Assembly (NCBI RefSeq): GCF_014930455.1
Contig: NZ_JAAIYO010000010.1
Span: 248,001-312,000 of the forward strand
Reading direction: 5' to 3'
Length of the DNA: 64,000 nt
Source: Corallococcus soli
Lineage (GTDB): Bacteria > Myxococcota > Myxococcia > Myxococcales > Myxococcaceae
Under the pieces are notes generated by a model. It was not told the DNA's origin and made no database searches. It was given only the letters and a program-made list of their open reading frames with translations. The translations under genes were made by a program, and so were the position numbers. Positions within the stretch are counted from its first letter, which is position 1, and every line of letters begins with the position of its first letter. Of this stretch, positions 17,115 to 61,196 are shown one piece after another.

Positions 17115-18736
17115 AGCGACCTGGAATCTGGGGCCTCGTGGCCCTGCTGGCGGTGGTGGGGTGCAAGAAGGGCGAGGACGCCGCGCCGTCCGCGCCGTCG
17201 CAGCGCAGCGCCGCGAAGGGCGACACCGTCCGCAGCGCGGCCAAGGGCGCGGCGGTGGTGGGCGGGCAGGGGCAGCAGCTGGCGGCGGGGCGCGCCGCGG
17301 ACCTGCGCCTGTCTCCGGACGGGCAGTTCGCCACGTACCTGCTCAACGGCCAGAAACCCCGGCTGGACGGCATCCCGCCGCAGATGCTGGTGGGCACGCT
17401 GTACGTGGTGCCGGTGGCGGGCGGCAAGCCGCGCGAGCTGGGGGACGGCGTGACGAACGTGCCGGGCAGCCTGCTGTTCTCCGCGGACTCCAAGCACCTG
17501 CTGTACGTGACGGGCTACAACCCGGCCTCGCAGTCGGGCGAGCTGCACGCGCTGGCCCTGACGGACGCTGCGGCGGAGCCGGTGAAGCTGGGAGCGGCGG
17601 TGAGCTACCTGCTGCCCTCGCCCGACGGCGCCAGCGCGGCCTTCGTGGACGGCGGCGTGCTGAAGCTGGGGCCGCTGCCCTCGGGGCCGTTCCAGGACGT
17701 GGCGGCGGAGGTGAGCACCGCGCAGTTCACGCCGGACGGCAAGACGCTGCTCTTCAAGCGCCGGCTGTCGGCCGCGAGCGGGCTGGCGGCGGTGACGGTG
17801 GGCGCCAACGAGCCGCCGCGCAAGCTGGCGGATCAGGTGGGCGACTACCAGGTGTCCCCGGACGGCAAGCGCGTGGCGTACCAGGTGCGCAGCGAGGCCG
17901 TGCGCGGCATGTATGACCTGTACCTGGCGGAGGTGCCGGCGCTGAAGGGCCAGCGGCTCGCGGTGGGCTCGAAGGTGTTCGGCTTCTCGCCGGACGGCCA
18001 GTGGCTGGCGCGCACGGAGAACGGCAAGCCGGAGCAGCTGGGGGACCTGTACGTGGGGCCGGCCTCCGGCGGGCCCGGGCGCAAGGTGGGCGAGGCCGTG
18101 GAGGAGATGGCGTTCGCGCCGGACTCCAAGGCGGTGGGCTTCCTGGAGAAGTACGACCAGCCGTCGCGCGCGGGCGCGATGAGCGTGGCGGCGCTGCCGG
18201 ACGGCGCGCCCAAGCGCGTGGGGGACCGGGTGCCCAACTTCGTGTGGGGCTCGGACAGCCGCTACGTGGCGTTCCTGTCGCGCTTCGTGCGGCCGGTGTT
18301 CTCCGTGGACCTGATGCTGTACTCGCTGGGCCAGGAGAAGGCGGAGAAGGTGCAGCCGGGCGTGTTCGGCTACGGCTTCACGCCGAACAACGGCGCGGTG
18401 GTGTTCCGCACCAACTGCATCCGCAACGGCCGCGCGTGCGACTTCAAGGCGCTGGACCTGGGTGAGAAGCAGGCCGAGGCGAAGACGTGGATGCAGGGCA
18501 TCTTCAGCTACAAGATCTCCAACGACGGGGCCCGCATCCTGGCGACGTACGCGCGCATGGACTCGGACACCTACGACGTGGCCGTCTACGACGTGAAGAC
18601 GGGGGCCCGGAAGACGCTCGACCAGGGCGTGCAGGTGCCCACGTACTTCGCCGGCAAGGATGACACCCGCGCCGTCTACATCATCGGCCAGGGGCAGAAC
18701 CCCGGCGTGTACAGCGCCATCGCCTCAGCGCAGTAG
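17111..18736 (+). CDS. Lipoprotein with TolB/PD40-like beta-propeller
   Basis: A 541-residue lipoprotein. The signal ends in a lipobox (LLAVVGC, Cys18), then a charged and low-complexity linker. From about residue 60 to the end there are repeated propeller units of the PD40/WD40-like type, with recurring [44 protein letters not shown] and [10 protein letters not shown]. Such propellers occur in TolB and in protein-binding periplasmic lipoproteins; no enzyme active site is visible. It is fused to trmFO by an ATGA overlap, an unexplained partnership that may only reflect shared transcription. Function unknown. Confidence 0.75.
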
Positions 18737-42604: not shown

Positions 42605-43888
42605 ATGGGACCGGGCGCGCAGGGGCAGCGTCGCGACGTGCTGGCTTTCTTCCTGCTCGTGGGGTTCGCGGCGGTGATGTACGCGGTGCCGGGTGAGTGG
42701 ATCCCCGCGCTGGCGCCGCTGCGGCTGGCGCTCCTGACGTCGGGCCTGGCGGCCGGACTGATGGTGCTGCGGCGGCTGGGCAAGGCGGAGCCCGTCTATT
42801 TCGACGGCGCGCGGGGCATCGCGCTGCTGGCGTTCTCGTCGCTGGCGTTCTGCTCGGTGGCGTGGTCCGTCAATCCGGACGTGACGCGCTTCCAGGGCGT
42901 GGAGCTCTTGAAGCTCACGGCCATCTACCTGACGCTCGTCAACGTCATCACCACCGGCAAGCGGCTGGCGGCGATGTGCGCGGCCATGGTGCTGGGCGCC
43001 ATCGTGACGTCCATTGGCGTCATCAACTGGTACATCGTCGGCGAGAACATGGTGGAGGGCTTCCGTTCGCGCTGGGTCGGCGTGTACGCGGACCCCAACC
43101 ACATGGCCATGAACATGGTGGTGGTGGTGCCGCTCGCGGTGGCCTTCCTGGCGCGCAAGCGCACCCCGTGGTTCTTCCGCGTGCTGTGCGGCCTGTCCGC
43201 GGTGCTGTCGGTGGTGGCCATCGTGTTGTCGCACTCGCGCGGTGGCTTCATCGGCCTGTCGGTGGCGATGGCGCTGTGGGCCATCCGCGAGAAGCGCCGC
43301 ATGCAGGCCATCGTGCTGGGCAGCGTGTTCGTGCTGGGCCTGGTGGTGTTCGCGCCCAAGAGCTTCTGGCAGCGCAACGAGACGGTGGCGACGTTCCACG
43401 AGGACGCGTCCGCCATGGGCCGTGTGTACGCGTGGCAGGTGGCCAGCCGCATGAGCCTGGACAAGCCGCTGCTGGGCGTGGGCGCGGGCGGCTTCCGCTA
43501 CGCGTGGTTCGAATACGCCCCGCCGGAAGCGCACCGCGCCTACGTGGCGCACAACATCTTCCTGGACGTCATCGGGGAGATGGGCTGGGTGGGCCTGCTG
43601 TTCTTCCTGGTGTTCGTGGGTGGCTCCGTCGGCGGCGCGGCGGCGGCCTCCGCGGATCCAGAGTCAGGGTGGCTCGCGCGGGCGCTGTTCGCGTCGGTTG
43701 CGGGCTACCTCGTCTGTGACTTGTTCTCGGGCTACATCCTGTCCGCGCATTGCTACGTGCTCTTCGGCCTGGCCGCGAGCGCGCACCGCATCGCGCAGGC
43801 ACGGGAGCGGGCCCTGGCGGTGGGGAGGCAGCCGGCCGTGCAGCAGGCGCCGGCGGCCACGTGGGAGGGGTCTGGGCATGCGGCGTGA
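42605..43888 (+). CDS. O-antigen ligase/polymerase family membrane protein (Wzy_C)
   Basis: A 427-residue polytopic inner-membrane protein with about 11-12 predicted helices. The Wzy_C/O-antigen ligase core is visible: GVYADPNHMAMNMVVVVPLA, IVLSHSRGGFIGLSVAMALW, and after the large periplasmic loop LLGVGAGGFRYAWFEYAPPE with HNIFLDVIGEMGWVGLLFF. Such proteins polymerise or transfer lipid-linked polysaccharide repeats. ATG 42605 is chosen since GGGGTGGAG precedes it; an in-frame GTG at 42524 would add a basic non-membrane extension. The glycosyltransferase gene follows within 10 bp. Confidence 0.85.
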   Translation: MGPGAQGQRRDVLAFFLLVGFAAVMYAVPGEWIPALAPLRLALLTSGLAAGLMVLRRLGKAEPVYFDGARGIALLAFSSLAFCSVAWSVNPDVTRFQGVELLKLTAIYLTLVNVITTGKRLAAMCAAMVLGAIVTSIGVINWYIVGENMVEGFRSRWVGVYADPNHMAMNMVVVVPLAVAFLARKRTPWFFRVLCGLSAVLSVVAIVLSHSRGGFIGLSVAMALWAIREKRRMQAIVLGSVFVLGLVVFAPKSFWQRNETVATFHEDASAMGRVYAWQVASRMSLDKPLLGVGAGGFRYAWFEYAPPEAHRAYVAHNIFLDVIGEMGWVGLLFFLVFVGGSVGGAAAASADPESGWLARALFASVAGYLVCDLFSGYILSAHCYVLFGLAASAHRIAQARERALAVGRQPAVQQAPAATWEGSGHAA

Positions 43889-43898
43889 GGAAGCACGG

Positions 43899-45029
43899 AT
43901 GGGGCGGGAGCCCCTCCGTTTGGTGCAGTTCACCCGGTCGTTCCACATTGGTGGCACCGAAGTGCAGGTGCTGGAGTTGCTGCGCGGCCTGCCGCCCAGC
44001 TACCGGTTGCAGGTGTCGGTGCTGGAGGAGGAAGGGCCCCTGATGGGCTCGGTGTGGAAGCTGGGCCACGCGCCGGAGGTCTTCTCCCTCAAGGGCACGC
44101 TCGCGCAGCCGAACACGCTCGTGCAGCTCTACCGGCTGTCACGCTGGCTCAAGCAGCACCGCGTGCAGCTGGTGCACGTGCACGACTTCTACTCCAGCAT
44201 CCTCGCGGTGCCGGCCGCGAAGCTCGCCGGCGCGAAGGTCATCGTCGGGCGCCTGGACCTGTCCCACTGGCAGGGCAAGGCCCGCCGCCTGCTGCACGCG
44301 CAGGTGACGCGCATGGCGGACCACGTCATCGCCAACGCGGGCGCCATCCGCACCCTGCTCATGGAAGAGGAGGGCCTGCCCGCCGAGCGCATCTCCGTCA
44401 TCCACAACGGCCTGGACCTTGCCCGCTTTGACGCCCGCGCCGCGGAGGGCGTCAAGGCGCCGCTGCCGCCGGAGACCCCGGGCGTCCCCACCGTCATCCA
44501 CGTGGCCAACATGAGCCACCCCGTGAAGCGGCAGGAGGACCTGCTCCTCGCGCTCGCCATGCTGCGTCATGAGGGCGTCCCGCTGAACGCCTGGCTCGTG
44601 GGGGATGGTCCGCGCCGGCCCGGCCTGGAGAAGATGGCGCGGGAGCTGGGGGTGGCGGACGGGGTGCACTTCCTCAAGCACCGCACGGACGTGCCGGCGC
44701 TCTATGGCCGTGCCACCTTCGGCGTCCTGTGCTCCTCCGCGGAGGGCATGTCCAACGCGGTGATGGAGGGCATGGCCGCGGGCCTCCCCATGGTCGTCAC
44801 CCGAGTGGGCGGCAACCCGGACCTCATCGTGGACGGCGAGCGGGGCCTCCTGGTGGACCCGGAGCGGCCCGCCCAGCTGGCCCAGGCCTTCCGGCGGCTC
44901 TTGAACCACCCGGAGGAGGCCCGGAAGATGGGCAAGGCCGCCCGGGGCTTCGTCGCCCGCGAGCTGTCCCTGGAGAAGATGGTGCGTCAGCATGACGCCC
45001 TGTACCGCCAGGTCGCACAGCTTCCCTGA
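43899..45029 (+). CDS. GT4-family glycosyltransferase
   Basis: A 376-residue GT-B fold glycosyltransferase. The N-terminal acceptor domain has FTRSFHIGGTEVQVLELLRG, and the C-terminal nucleotide-sugar domain has VANMSHPVKRQEDLLLALAM, WLVGDGPRRPGLEKMARELG and the EX7E motif in SSAEGMSNAVMEGMAAGLPM. It probably adds a sugar to the polysaccharide handled by the adjacent polymerase. ATG 43899 has GAGGAAG upstream; an alternative ATG at 43878 overlaps the polymerase stop. Substrate unknown. Confidence 0.86.
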   Translation: MGREPLRLVQFTRSFHIGGTEVQVLELLRGLPPSYRLQVSVLEEEGPLMGSVWKLGHAPEVFSLKGTLAQPNTLVQLYRLSRWLKQHRVQLVHVHDFYSSILAVPAAKLAGAKVIVGRLDLSHWQGKARRLLHAQVTRMADHVIANAGAIRTLLMEEEGLPAERISVIHNGLDLARFDARAAEGVKAPLPPETPGVPTVIHVANMSHPVKRQEDLLLALAMLRHEGVPLNAWLVGDGPRRPGLEKMARELGVADGVHFLKHRTDVPALYGRATFGVLCSSAEGMSNAVMEGMAAGLPMVVTRVGGNPDLIVDGERGLLVDPERPAQLAQAFRRLLNHPEEARKMGKAARGFVARELSLEKMVRQHDALYRQVAQLP

Positions 45030-45037
45030 GAGTGGAA

Positions 45038-45055
45038 CCGGCCCTCCAGGGCCGG
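45038..45055 (+). terminator. Hairpin directly after the glycosyltransferase gene
   Basis: CCGGCCCT and AGGGCCGG (8 bp, perfect) around CC, 8 bp after the stop codon. No T-run follows, so read-through is possible. Confidence 0.45.
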
Positions 45056-45179
45056 GAAATGTCAGACCGATCTGGATAATCCGAGCCCGTCCTCAAGCAA
45101 TTGGGGGCGGGCGCGTTCGTATGTTGGCGGGGGGGCTTCCAGCCGCGTCGCACCCTGTGTGTTTAATTTATAGATGGGA

Positions 45180-45510
45180 ATAGCTCGTTTTTCGTGGAGA
45201 TTGGTGGGAAGCCTGTGGTAATGGCGCGACAGGCGTTGCGACCCGAGCGCGCCGTGCCCACCGTGGTGGGCGTCGGATCAGGCGGTGCAGGAATCGCCGC
45301 GGACCTGACGGGGTTTTGAAGGGAGCGGACGTCGAGCGCGGGGCCCGGAGATACGGGACGCGGGGCGGACGCGGAACATGAAGGTGGCGCGGAGTGGGCG
45401 TAAGGCCCGCATCCGCATCCGCCGCGACTTTACGAGGCCCTGCCAGTCGGCACGCGGCCCGGGGCGCTCGCCGGTAAAACTCCAAGGTGCCGGCGAGCGC
45501 TCTCTTTTTT
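45180..45510 (+). ncRNA. Candidate non-coding RNA ending at a strong intrinsic terminator
   Basis: The 543-bp gap between the glycosyltransferase gene and the convergent cyclodeaminase gene holds no credible gene, yet ends in a textbook terminator (45464-45510). About 300 bp upstream is the most A/T-rich spot nearby (45161-45175), with TTTAAT and TATAGA as possible -10 boxes but no good -35. A transcript of about 330 nt is inferred. The sequence shows none of the conserved blocks I know for RNase P, tmRNA, SRP or 6S RNA. It could instead be a long 3' UTR of the glycosyltransferase transcript. Confidence 0.35.
45464..45510 (+). terminator. Strong intrinsic terminator
   Basis: Perfect 11-bp stem GCGCTCGCCGG / CCGGCGAGCGC with a 15-base loop, followed by TCTCTTTTTT (45501-45510). 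Orientation is plus strand only; the minus-strand reading has no T-run. Confidence 0.85.
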
Positions 45511-45572
45511 GTCCTCGGGGCAGGCGTCCTGACAGGTCGCCTGTCTCGCCCAGACGCTCTGGGTGGGATGGC

Positions 45573-46535
45573 TCAGGCGTCCCCGACCAGGTCGAACAGC
45601 TGCCCGACGCCCTTCGCGCGGGCCACGTCGTAGAGCGCGCGGGCCAGGGCCACGTCCTGCACGGCGAGGCCGGTGGAGTCGAAGACGGTGACTTCGTCTC
45701 CGGTCCGCCCCGGCTTGCGACCCGCGACGACCTGGCCCAGGGTGCCGGCGAGCTGCTCCTCCTTGATCACCCCGTCATGCAGGGGCACGTTGACCTCGCC
45801 GGAGTGCAGCGCCTGTTCCGCGTCGTCGATGAAGACGCGCCCTTCGACGAGCAGGCGCGGATCCAGCTCCTGCTTGCCCGGGGCGTCCGCGCCCATGGCG
45901 TTGATGTGGGCGCCGGACTGGACCCACTCCCTGCGGACCACCGGGGCACGGGCGGGCGTGGCGGAGCACACGATGTCCGCGCCGGAGGCCTCCTGGAGGC
46001 TCACCACCCGGCCTCCCTTCTCCTTCTGGAGGGCCTGGGCGGCGGCGTCGGACACGTCCGCCAGCAGCAGCTCCAGGTCGCCGAAGAGGGCGCGGTGCGA
46101 GTCGATGAGCACCCGCGCCTGCACGCCGCAGCCCACGAGTCCCAGCGTGCGCGGCTGCTTCTTCGCCAGGTACTTGGACGCGATGCCGCCCGCGGCGCCG
46201 GTGCGCCACGCGGTGAGCAGCGTGCCGTCCAGGATGGCCAGCGGTGAGGCGGTGTCCGGGTCGCTGAGGATGTAGACGGCGCGCACGGTGGGCAGGCCGT
46301 GCTTCTGCGGGTTGCGCGGATGCGCGTTGACCCACTTCACGCCCGCGGCCCCGTCCAGGAACGCCGGCATGGCGCGGAAGTCGCCGTCGTACTTCGGCAG
46401 GGACAGGTACACCTTGGGGGGCATGAGCGCGTCGTTACGGCCATGGGCCAGGAAGGCGCGCTCCACGGCTTCCAGTCCGAGCTCGACGGTGTAGAGGCCG
46501 CGCAGCTCTTTCGCACTGAGGAGGAGGGTGGGCAT
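45573..46535 (-). CDS. Ornithine cyclodeaminase/mu-crystallin family protein
   Basis: A 320-residue NAD(P)-dependent enzyme. The N-terminal dimerisation half has LMPPKVYLSLPKYDGDFRAM and GVKWVNAHPRNP. The Rossmann part has GLVGCGVQARVLIDSHRALF and CSATPARAPVVRREWVQSGA with HINAMGADAPGKQELD. The family includes ornithine cyclodeaminase, archaeal-type alanine dehydrogenase and imine reductases, and the sequence alone does not decide among them. ATG 46535 follows a GGAGGAG-like site on the minus strand. It is downstream of the ELW-repeat lipoprotein gene by 146 bp. Confidence 0.82.
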   Translation of the reverse strand: MPTLLLSAKELRGLYTVELGLEAVERAFLAHGRNDALMPPKVYLSLPKYDGDFRAMPAFLDGAAGVKWVNAHPRNPQKHGLPTVRAVYILSDPDTASPLAILDGTLLTAWRTGAAGGIASKYLAKKQPRTLGLVGCGVQARVLIDSHRALFGDLELLLADVSDAAAQALQKEKGGRVVSLQEASGADIVCSATPARAPVVRREWVQSGAHINAMGADAPGKQELDPRLLVEGRVFIDDAEQALHSGEVNVPLHDGVIKEEQLAGTLGQVVAGRKPGRTGDEVTVFDSTGLAVQDVALARALYDVARAKGVGQLFDLVGDA

Positions 46536-50487: not shown

Positions 50488-51189
50488 CTATCGGCGAAGC
50501 AGCACGTACACCGCGCCCGTTCCTCCGTCCTGCGGGCGTGCGCTGGCGAACGCGAGCACCAGCCGCTCCATCCGCTTCTGCCCAAGCCACACCTTCAACC
50601 CCTCCTTCAGCACCGGCACCTGCTCCTTGGAGTTCAAACCGCGCCCGTGGATGATGAGGACGCAGCGCTTCTTGGAGCGCTGGCTGTCGGACAGGAAGCG
50701 CTCCACGGCGCCCCGGGCCTCGGCGGCCGTCTTGCCGTGCAGGTCCAACGTGTCCTGCACGGAGAAGTCGCCCCGGCGCAGCGAGCGCAGCAGGTTGCGG
50801 TCCACGCCGGGGGCGGCGCCCTCGATGAACTCGTTCGAGTCCGCGACGTCGAAGCCGCCCTCGCCGGCGACCAGCTCCGACAGCTGGGCCAGGGCCTCCG
50901 CGTTGTCGTCGATGAGCTCCGGCAGGCGCGGGTTCACCTTGGGGGCCTCGCCCCGGTTCGTCATCTGCTGCACGCCGTCCATGGCGGAGAAGAAGAGGCC
51001 CACGTCGTCGTCCTCCGGCCGGGCCTTGGCGGCCTTCACGGGCTTCGCGACGACCTTCTTCTTCGCGGCGGCCTCCGCGGCGGCCTTCTGCTGTTCCTGC
51101 TTCTCCTGGTCCTGGAGCGTCTTGATGGCGGACTTGAAGGGGTTGTTCTGGAAGGCCGCTTCCTTCTTCTTCGGGGGCTGCTTGCTCAT
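50488..51189 (-). CDS. Smr-domain protein (MutS2 C-terminal-like)
   Basis: A 233-residue cytoplasmic protein. A Lys/Ala-rich coiled-coil N-terminus (about 1-65) leads into a middle helical region, and the C-terminal Smr domain (about 145-233) carries TLDLHGKTAAEARGAVERFL, VLIIHGRGLNSKEQVPVLKE and GGTGAVYVLLRR. Smr domains are nicking nucleases or RNA-cleaving modules (SmrB, MutS2). As a stand-alone Smr protein it may act in ribosome rescue or DNA repair; which one cannot be told here. Confidence 0.84.
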   Translation of the reverse strand: MSKQPPKKKEAAFQNNPFKSAIKTLQDQEKQEQQKAAAEAAAKKKVVAKPVKAAKARPEDDDVGLFFSAMDGVQQMTNRGEAPKVNPRLPELIDDNAEALAQLSELVAGEGGFDVADSNEFIEGAAPGVDRNLLRSLRRGDFSVQDTLDLHGKTAAEARGAVERFLSDSQRSKKRCVLIIHGRGLNSKEQVPVLKEGLKVWLGQKRMERLVLAFASARPQDGGTGAVYVLLRR

Positions 51190-53614: not shown

Positions 53615-53732
53615 GCAGACCTCGACTCAATCAGGGTTGGGGGGCGTATGGAGCCGGAAACCTGCTCTTCATTAAAATCCGGCTCAGCTGGTTTCCAAGG
53701 TACCTGGAGCGAAGCGGTTGGGACAAGTCCTG

Positions 53733-53807
53733 GGTCAGCGTTCACGGCGGCCGGTGGTTGCGGGCGTGAACCCTGACCGCTCAGGCAAAAACCATCCCGT
53801 GAGCGGT
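53733..53807. other. Two overlapping hairpins in a 314-bp gene-free stretch
   Basis: The stretch 53615-53928 holds no gene. Hairpin A pairs GGTCAG-c-GTTCACG (53733-53746) with CGTGAAC-c-CTGACC (53765-53778), 13 bp plus a mismatch. Hairpin B pairs ACCGCTCA (53776-53783) with TGAGCGGT (53800-53807) and is followed by a T-rich run. They share bases 53776-53778, so they are mutually exclusive, as in attenuators. Confidence 0.45.
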
Positions 53808-53928
53808 TTCGTCTGGCTTTCTGATTATCGCCACCCACGAAGACATGGCTTTGGAGGGGATGTGTATGGCGGGAGATTCGTGGTCAGGGTGGTTTTGAAA
53901 AGGATGACCGCTGGGCTACAAGGGAGGA

Positions 53929-60664: not shown

Positions 60665-60705
60665 TTCCCTTCCATCCCTCCGCACGCACGCGAGGAGCCG
60701 TCTCC

Positions 60706-61089
60706 ATGTCCGATTCCATCCCGCAGGACCTGAAGTACACGAAGGAACACGAGTGGGCCCGCGTCGGGACCAAGACCGTGGTGGTGGGTGTCACCGCCCA
60801 CGCCCAGGAAGCGCTGGGCGACGTGGTCTACGTGGAGCTGCCGAAGCTCGGCACCCAGCTGGTGGAGGGCAAGCAGTTCGGCGTCATCGAGTCCACCAAG
60901 GCCGTGTCGGACCTGTACGCGCCCATCAGCGGCACCGTGGTGGCGGTGAACGACGCGCTCACCGGCAACCCGTCCATCATCAACACCGACCCGTATGGGC
61001 AGGGCTGGATCGTGGAGCTTGAGCCCCTGGACGGCGAGCAGGTGGGCAAGCTCCTGGACGCCGCCGCGTACGGCGCGCTCCTGAAGTAG
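60706..61089 (+). CDS. gcvH: Glycine cleavage system H protein
   Basis: A 127-residue lipoyl carrier shuttling the aminomethyl group between P, T and L proteins. The lipoylated residue is Lys65 in [12 protein letters not shown]. The N-terminal [12 protein letters not shown] and the strand [14 protein letters not shown] are standard. Second gene of the gcv operon. Confidence 0.96.
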
Positions 61090-61196
61090 CCCTTCGCGCA
61101 AGAAGTGGAGCGTCCGGATTGTTAGAGACGCTCCACGAGGCTCCGACCCCGTTCGGACGCCGACTCCTTCCGCACCTCACGCGAGCCCTCCCGACC

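Follow-up and report, generated by a model that had tools for sequence, protein, structure and literature searches.

Pxr is the studied case of a myxobacterial small RNA among the matches listed in our literature searches. The excerpts of PMC5684412 and PMC5568312 describe it as an intergenic RNA that ends in a stem-loop, and those of PMC5568312 place it after nla19/pxrR, toward the pxrA and NADH dehydrogenase side. M. xanthus has no hfq, according to the available part of PMC5684412. The small RNAs derived from 3' untranslated regions (3' UTRs), of which CpxQ, MalH, and SdhX are examples, are located at the 3' end of an mRNA, share its terminator, and contain a short conserved segment, as described in the excerpted text of PMC9438474.

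Here we analyze a window of 64,000 nucleotides of Corallococcus soli (contig NZ_JAAIYO010000010.1, positions 248,001 to 312,000), in which a plus-strand interval shares features with each of these systems. We favor, with somewhat better than even confidence, the reading that the interval is a Myxococcaceae noncoding RNA gene descended from the 3' end of an mRNA. To judge from its sequence, the candidate RNA is not a new RNA gene; it is left over from a DUF4097 transcription unit, and the 3' hairpin of that unit is conserved across the family. Pxr, an RNA of the same suborder, was the first identity considered and was rejected by both place and sequence. The neighbors at the present locus are a glycosyltransferase and an ornithine cyclodeaminase gene; the loop sequence ACTCCAAGG is absent from all five pxrA-region loci, two of which (L094 and L095) have a different terminal hairpin. 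The hairpin is not described in the excerpts of the literature on myxobacterial small RNAs that were searched or in Rfam 15, which gave no match at the gathering threshold anywhere in the window; between 44900 and 45700, two matches at E values of 3 and 3.9 fell far below threshold.

The terminator hairpin and its neighboring genes

The features at the 3' end of the interval and the gene that precedes it are as follows.

43878 to 45029, plus strand: glycosyltransferase (group 1/family 4) gene, the last plus-strand gene before the RNA, identified by translation and Pfam
45038 to 45055, plus strand: short GC hairpin past the glycosyltransferase stop codon, without a T-run, read from the sequence and variable within the genus
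45436 to 45459, plus strand: hairpin immediately 5' of the terminator, predicted by RNAalifold and folding
45462 to 45502, plus strand: family-wide hairpin, a 15-bp stem with G-U pairs counted (45462-45476/45488-45502) around an 11-nt loop (45477-45487), AAACTCCAAGG
45505 to 45510, plus strand: T6 tract of the intrinsic terminator, read from the sequence

An earlier note on this DNA had described a perfect 11-bp GC-rich stem near which no plus-strand gene ends. Both observations hold: the stem pairs 45464-45474 with 45490-45500 and is followed by CTCTTTTTT, with T6 at 45505-45510, while the nearest plus-strand gene ends at 45029, ~430 nt upstream. In RNA, the 11-nt loop reads AAACUCCAAGG. The segment from 45426 to 45510 has a folding energy of -46.3 kcal/mol (z = -4.17), which none of 200 shuffled sequences equaled, and the hairpin at 45462-45502 has the stable GC-rich stem and subsequent U-run of an intrinsic (Rho-independent) terminator. 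Support for the hairpin that precedes it is modest across 41 loci, with z below -1 in 20 of 41 and a median of -0.94. A pattern scan of 18 kb gave 13 terminator-like sites against 6.1 expected; since it allowed loops of at most 8, it picked up only 5 pairs of this hairpin.

The hairpin is located where a sugar-polymer gene cluster ends. The glycosyltransferase gene is preceded by an O-antigen ligase-like gene, and the next gene downstream of the hairpin is a convergent ornithine cyclodeaminase gene (45573-46532). Identification of the upstream genes with the BPS polysaccharide genes around MXAN_1915 was dropped, as the excerpts of PMC7310880 and PMC7484181 give MXAN_1915 another role. The short hairpin at 45038-45055 had been taken to close the glycosyltransferase gene, a role that the sequence does not support: it is followed by GAAATG and, having no T-run, is not a canonical intrinsic terminator.

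The glycosyltransferase mRNA may thus read through to 45510, and such read-through would fit an explanation in which the hairpin is only the intrinsic terminator of a glycosyltransferase operon (formerly a glycosyltransferase-DUF4097 operon) and the preceding stretch, without a transcript of its own, is a long 3' UTR that gene loss left behind. The hairpin is indeed located 3' of the glycosyltransferase gene in the main loci, with or without a DUF4097 gene between them. We nevertheless regard this explanation as unlikely, though by no means negligible. A stable stem and a U-run suffice for termination and do not require an unchanged 9-nt loop, the longest tail T-run is only 3 to 4 nt in 9 of 40 hairpins (a set collected by the loop motif) that still keep the loop, a second copy is present elsewhere in four genomes, and ~330 nt upstream of the hairpin are constrained in Corallococcus.

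Distribution, stem, and loop of the hairpin in the family

A DNA match to the 3' part of the interval was found at an E value of 1e-4 in 61 of 96 family genomes, representing 8 of 26 genera. The earlier note had proposed a covariance search of the interval; a covariance model (R1) run on 195 genomes of the phylum matched strongly, at E values no higher than 3e-13, in 62 genomes out of the 64 that represent eight genera, and the two genomes of these genera that had no strong hairpin (G012 and G074) had no glycosyltransferase match either. The G074 assembly is fragmented. The hairpin is nearly always single copy, apart from a second strong copy in four genomes, and a repeat or mobile element is unlikely considering that each genome has one strong place, save these four with two.

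The second copies (L076, L078, L081, and L082) belong to four genomes of one genus. The copy in L081 follows a PhoU_div (DUF47) gene, with similar sequence in L076 and L082; in L078, the PhoU_div gene looks decayed and the hairpin is intact.

Scanning the genome collection with an exact pattern returned 25 stretches from Corallococcus, Myxococcus, Pyxidicoccus, Archangium, Citreicoccus, Hyalangium, two records whose titles give only Myxococcaceae, and one under the title Comamonas. The last, Comamonas sp. KCTC 72670 (BNCN01000003.1), has the hairpin on a contig that equals in length (767,272 bases) a contig of a Myxococcus-group genome (G066) and is probably mislabeled. The hairpin is present in Myxococcus xanthus and is widespread in the fruiting-body-forming genera examined.

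Apart from those in the 62 genomes with strong matches and the four second copies, the matches are weak. They raise the count to 67 of 92 genomes and 15 of 26 genera at an E value of 0.01, and to 68 of 195 genomes at 0.001, where four of the weak matches come from this hairpin read on the opposite strand. We fetched thirteen other weak matches (five within the eight genera, one from another genus of the family, and seven from outside the family); these are GC-rich stems, none of which contains ACTCCAAGG. One weak match (L228) has CTCCAAG but is located inside long open frames and has no T-run. Another of them (L224, genome G039) looks like an unrelated terminator whose loop contains TCCAAGG; its stem is different, and the similarity may be due to chance. 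Searching by protein in two further genera gave four glycosyltransferase loci, three in G016 and one in G043. One of those in G016 (L101) has an apparent DUF4097 frame and a hairpin with CCTCCAAGG, while no such hairpin was present in the stretch read at the other three.

The loop is the invariant part of the hairpin. Because alignment A2 had used the loop motif as a filter, loop invariance was taken from 41 loci aligned without filtering on the motif (37 main loci and 4 second copies), in all of which ACTCCAAGG and, in the loop, ACUCCAAGG are unchanged; these loci were gathered by similarity to a query that contains the loop, which favors an unchanged loop. Two extra copies of ACTCCAAGG in the window, at 18123-18131 (plus strand) and 50625-50633 (minus strand), bring its total there to 3 against 0.3 expected; both are inside predicted genes and may reflect codon usage.

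The stem, by comparison, varies in sequence and keeps its pairing. Across 40 distinct hairpins, collected by the loop motif, 98.7% of cells pair, and changes on both sides are seen in 7 of 15 stem pairs; there are 29 such cells against 6.7 in shuffles, none of 500 of which reached that number. The loop-closing pair is GC in 20 cases, CG in 7, AU in 5, and UA in 5. A measure of further pair types was not above shuffles (18 versus 16.7, 143/500). The stem is supported by these compensatory changes. The tail has a T-run of at least 5 in 31 of the same 40 hairpins and of 3 to 4 in the other 9.

Invariant loops on covarying stems are a common appearance of protein-binding hairpins. The same combination at this locus speaks for a second alternative, in which the loop is bound by an RNA-binding protein, or acts in cis on decay of the operon mRNA, rather than being part of a trans-acting small RNA. 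This alternative overlaps our favored reading, which does not specify the partner of the loop; taken separately, we give it a minor share of the probability. The target search described below, which gave no conserved target, is in its favor. Acting in cis on one protein gene would not be enough, however, because the hairpin outlasts its gene and a copy also follows PhoU_div in L081.

Loss of the DUF4097 gene and constraint on the interval

Most other genera have a DUF4097 gene (Pfam PF13349, from two proteins scanned) between the glycosyltransferase gene and the hairpin. Scored as intact where at least 214 codons were matched and the open frame was at least 232, this gene is intact at 34 of 60 loci, decayed at 4, and not recognizable at 22; the underlying table has 62 rows for 60 genomes (G029 and G064 appear twice) and leaves out G060 and G072. 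Corallococcus accounts for 15 of the 22 loci, Citreicoccus for two (both of its genomes), and two other genera for the remaining five. The decayed genes (L064, L065, L087, and L089) are two loci in each of two genera. Counting by these groups rather than on a tree, we arrive at three or more separate losses within the family. The terminator was orphaned because its DUF4097 gene was lost.

Traces of the lost unit appear to persist in Corallococcus. The additional features of the interval are as follows.

45060 to 45080, plus strand: promoter-like element TGTCAGACC-GATCT-GGATAAT, kept in the genus and found at the same place before DUF4097 in Myxococcus-group loci
45085 to 45112, plus strand: conserved leader hairpin GCCCG...CGGGC, with conservation at 45061-45115 and pairing read from the sequence
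45087 to 45510, plus strand: predicted noncoding transcript, its putative start placed by conservation and the TGTCAGACC element
45168 to 45203, plus strand: conserved block, a probable remnant of DUF4097 codons (I/V-D-G-N-S), from alignment, motif, and reverse search
45192 to 45203, plus strand: 5' arm of the long-range helix predicted to close a 330-nt domain, from RNAalifold, with its partner at 45425-45435, nearly invariant
45425 to 45435, plus strand: 3' arm of the same predicted helix, from RNAalifold

The promoter-leader of the intact unit aligns to ~45055-45133 in 14 of 14 genus loci (E values of 6e-12 to 6e-7). Against the block at 45168-45203, a model of the intact gene matched the collinear place in 14 of 14 genus loci, weakly (E of 0.015 to 2), where the best of 240 shuffled sequences gave 0.77. 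In the reverse search with a genus model, 10 of 36 other loci matched the remnant place (E of 0.007 to 5.4), and some matched other places. Over its whole length, the 330-nt domain can be aligned to locus L052 of Citreicoccus, with an E value of 5e-13 compared to 0.54 for the best shuffle.

The interval from 45030 to 45520 is present in 15 of 16 genus genomes, including that of C. soli; the other 14 align at 82 to 91% identity over nearly the full length, except that in G008 the interval is split over two contig pieces (90 and 97% identity). Across the 15 aligned genus loci, the hairpin and the last 55 alignment columns are identical. Mean pairwise identity was calculated from 11 of these loci, leaving out three in which no glycosyltransferase frame was found by pattern (L011, L012, and L019) as well as L013. 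It is 0.936 at 45061-45115, 0.853 over 45159-45508 (with weaker parts of 0.71 to 0.80 inside), 0.993 over 45426-45508, and 1.000 in the hairpin, compared to 0.80 at four-fold degenerate sites of the glycosyltransferase gene; neighboring intergenic sequence is lower, at 0.584 for 45116-45158 and 0.441 right past the hairpin. An intergenic control (53615-53928) was conserved in 0 of 91 other genomes. A second control (60665-61118), conserved in 88 of 92 family genomes, was dropped because a coding frame inside it, presumably glycine cleavage H-like, had been missed by the simple gene caller. Taken together with the coding analysis below, these data indicate that ~330 nt of apparently noncoding sequence between the promoter-like element and the hairpin are under constraint in the genus.

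The noncoding character claimed for the interval is borne out. From 45167 to the T-run, the 15 genus loci measure 343 to 348 nt, lengths that cover all residues modulo 3, and so no reading frame is shared through the interval. We therefore consider a conserved short protein encoded here to be highly improbable, despite stop-free stretches of 63 to 114 codons in each of the 15 sequences, the apparent descent of part of the stretch from DUF4097 codons, and one member (L020) that has, as an exception among the 15, one frame without a stop. Besides the insertions and deletions that shift the frame, the conserved blocks show conservation at every codon position, and a tblastn search with DUF4097 gave no match in any of the 15 genus loci.

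The predicted long-range helix encloses several hairpins in the RNAalifold structure, few pairs of which vary, with double changes in only 3 of 87 pairs and a covariation term of -2.56. The fold of the 330-nt domain is mildly better than that of shuffled sequences (z = -2.51, 1/100).

Promoter-like element and candidate mechanism

A transcript of about 330 nt had been proposed for the interval. The noncoding character is supported, but transcription would more likely begin near 45087 (~425 nt) than near 45180 (~330 nt), and the TGTCAGACC element points to an RNA that is probably ~425 nt long. The A/T-rich promoter-like spot at ~45160-45175 was not upheld, as it continues into the conserved block with its weak alignment to former DUF4097 codons; the place of its -35 box (45116-45158) is poorly conserved (0.58), whereas the TGTCAGACC...GGATAAT stretch is at 0.94. 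A sigma-70 scan found no promoter between 36000 and 54000.

TGTCAGACC or a near variant precedes the DUF4097 gene in Myxococcus-group loci. In this genome, TGTCAGACC occurs 29 times against 7 for the reversed control, TA follows exactly 7 nt downstream in 13 of the 29 copies, and a frame starts within 120 nt of 19 of 29 by a crude frame call. On account of these copy numbers, the TA spacing, and the nearby frames, the element is likely a promoter. The spacing at this locus, and also in Myxococcus, is 8, which differs from the 7 at the 13 other sites. Throughout this genome, TGTCAGACC-N7-TA resembles a promoter class, and TGTCAGACC is also found upstream of the second hairpin copy in L076 and L078. 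The geometry of the element resembles that of the mycobacterial LexA-independent promoter, written tTGTCRgtg - 8 nt - TannnT in the excerpts of PMC5656591. The excerpts of PMC12288472 and PMC9705874 did not contain TGTCAGACC as a described myxobacterial DNA-damage promoter, and a literature text search for TGTCAGACC gave nothing on myxobacteria among the matches listed.

These features suggest the following history. The ancestral unit would have begun with the glycosyltransferase gene, followed by a DUF4097 gene that carried its own promoter-like TGTCAGACC...GGATA; the hairpin at the end of the unit would have served as both intrinsic terminator and conserved RNA element. In Corallococcus, in Citreicoccus, and separately elsewhere, DUF4097 was lost, with the promoter-like element, leader, and hairpin kept. 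Transcription would run from ~45087 to 45510, possibly followed by processing to a 3' piece of ~85 nt (45426-45510). The exposed loop, as the putative working part of the hairpin, may then act in trans: its CUCC could pair with a Shine-Dalgarno-like GGAG, or a protein could bind it.

The terminator role explains part of the retention of the hairpin. Because the loop is constant across relatives even where the protein gene has decayed, the hairpin is probably more than a stop signal and part of a small regulatory RNA. A trans-acting small RNA is the simplest idea, given that the loop CUCC can pair with GGAG; a loop-binding protein is nearly as likely. We searched ten genomes for the loop complement, CCTTGGAGT, near start codons and found no conserved target. 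Before RTG, CCTTGGAGT occurs 23 times against 5 for its reverse in the C. soli genome, but 21 against 7 in G012, which does not have the RNA. Among the matches listed, several recurrent ones read as antisense of codons and are present in G012 as well. Since CCTTGGAGT matches also occur in G012, we claim no target.

A bolder version of this history is possible but doubtful: within a single family, a DUF4097 gene would have become a regulatory RNA gene on several occasions, with the anti-Shine-Dalgarno-like loop ACUCCAAGG acting in trans and the formerly coding stretch rebuilt in Corallococcus into a 330-nt structured body. The series runs from an intact through a decayed to an absent gene, and the RNA element is retained at every stage; it would be a rare natural record of how the end of an mRNA turns into an RNA gene.

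Compared with known systems, the hairpin has the GC-rich stem and T-run at an operon end that are typical of ordinary intrinsic terminators, but those with a similar stem, represented by the weak model matches, do not have the loop, which here is unchanged across genera. In Pxr, the third stem-loop is variable apart from 8 base pairs according to the excerpted sources, whereas here the terminator loop is the fixed part. With respect to place, the candidate corresponds to a 3' UTR-derived small RNA: the hairpin follows the intact DUF4097 gene at the 34 loci that have one, and in C. soli only the glycosyltransferase gene is left upstream. Relative to CpxQ, MalH, and SdhX as described in the excerpts of PMC9438474, this locus differs in two respects: several groups have lost the protein gene and kept the rest of the unit, and the segment that stays fixed is the terminator hairpin's loop.
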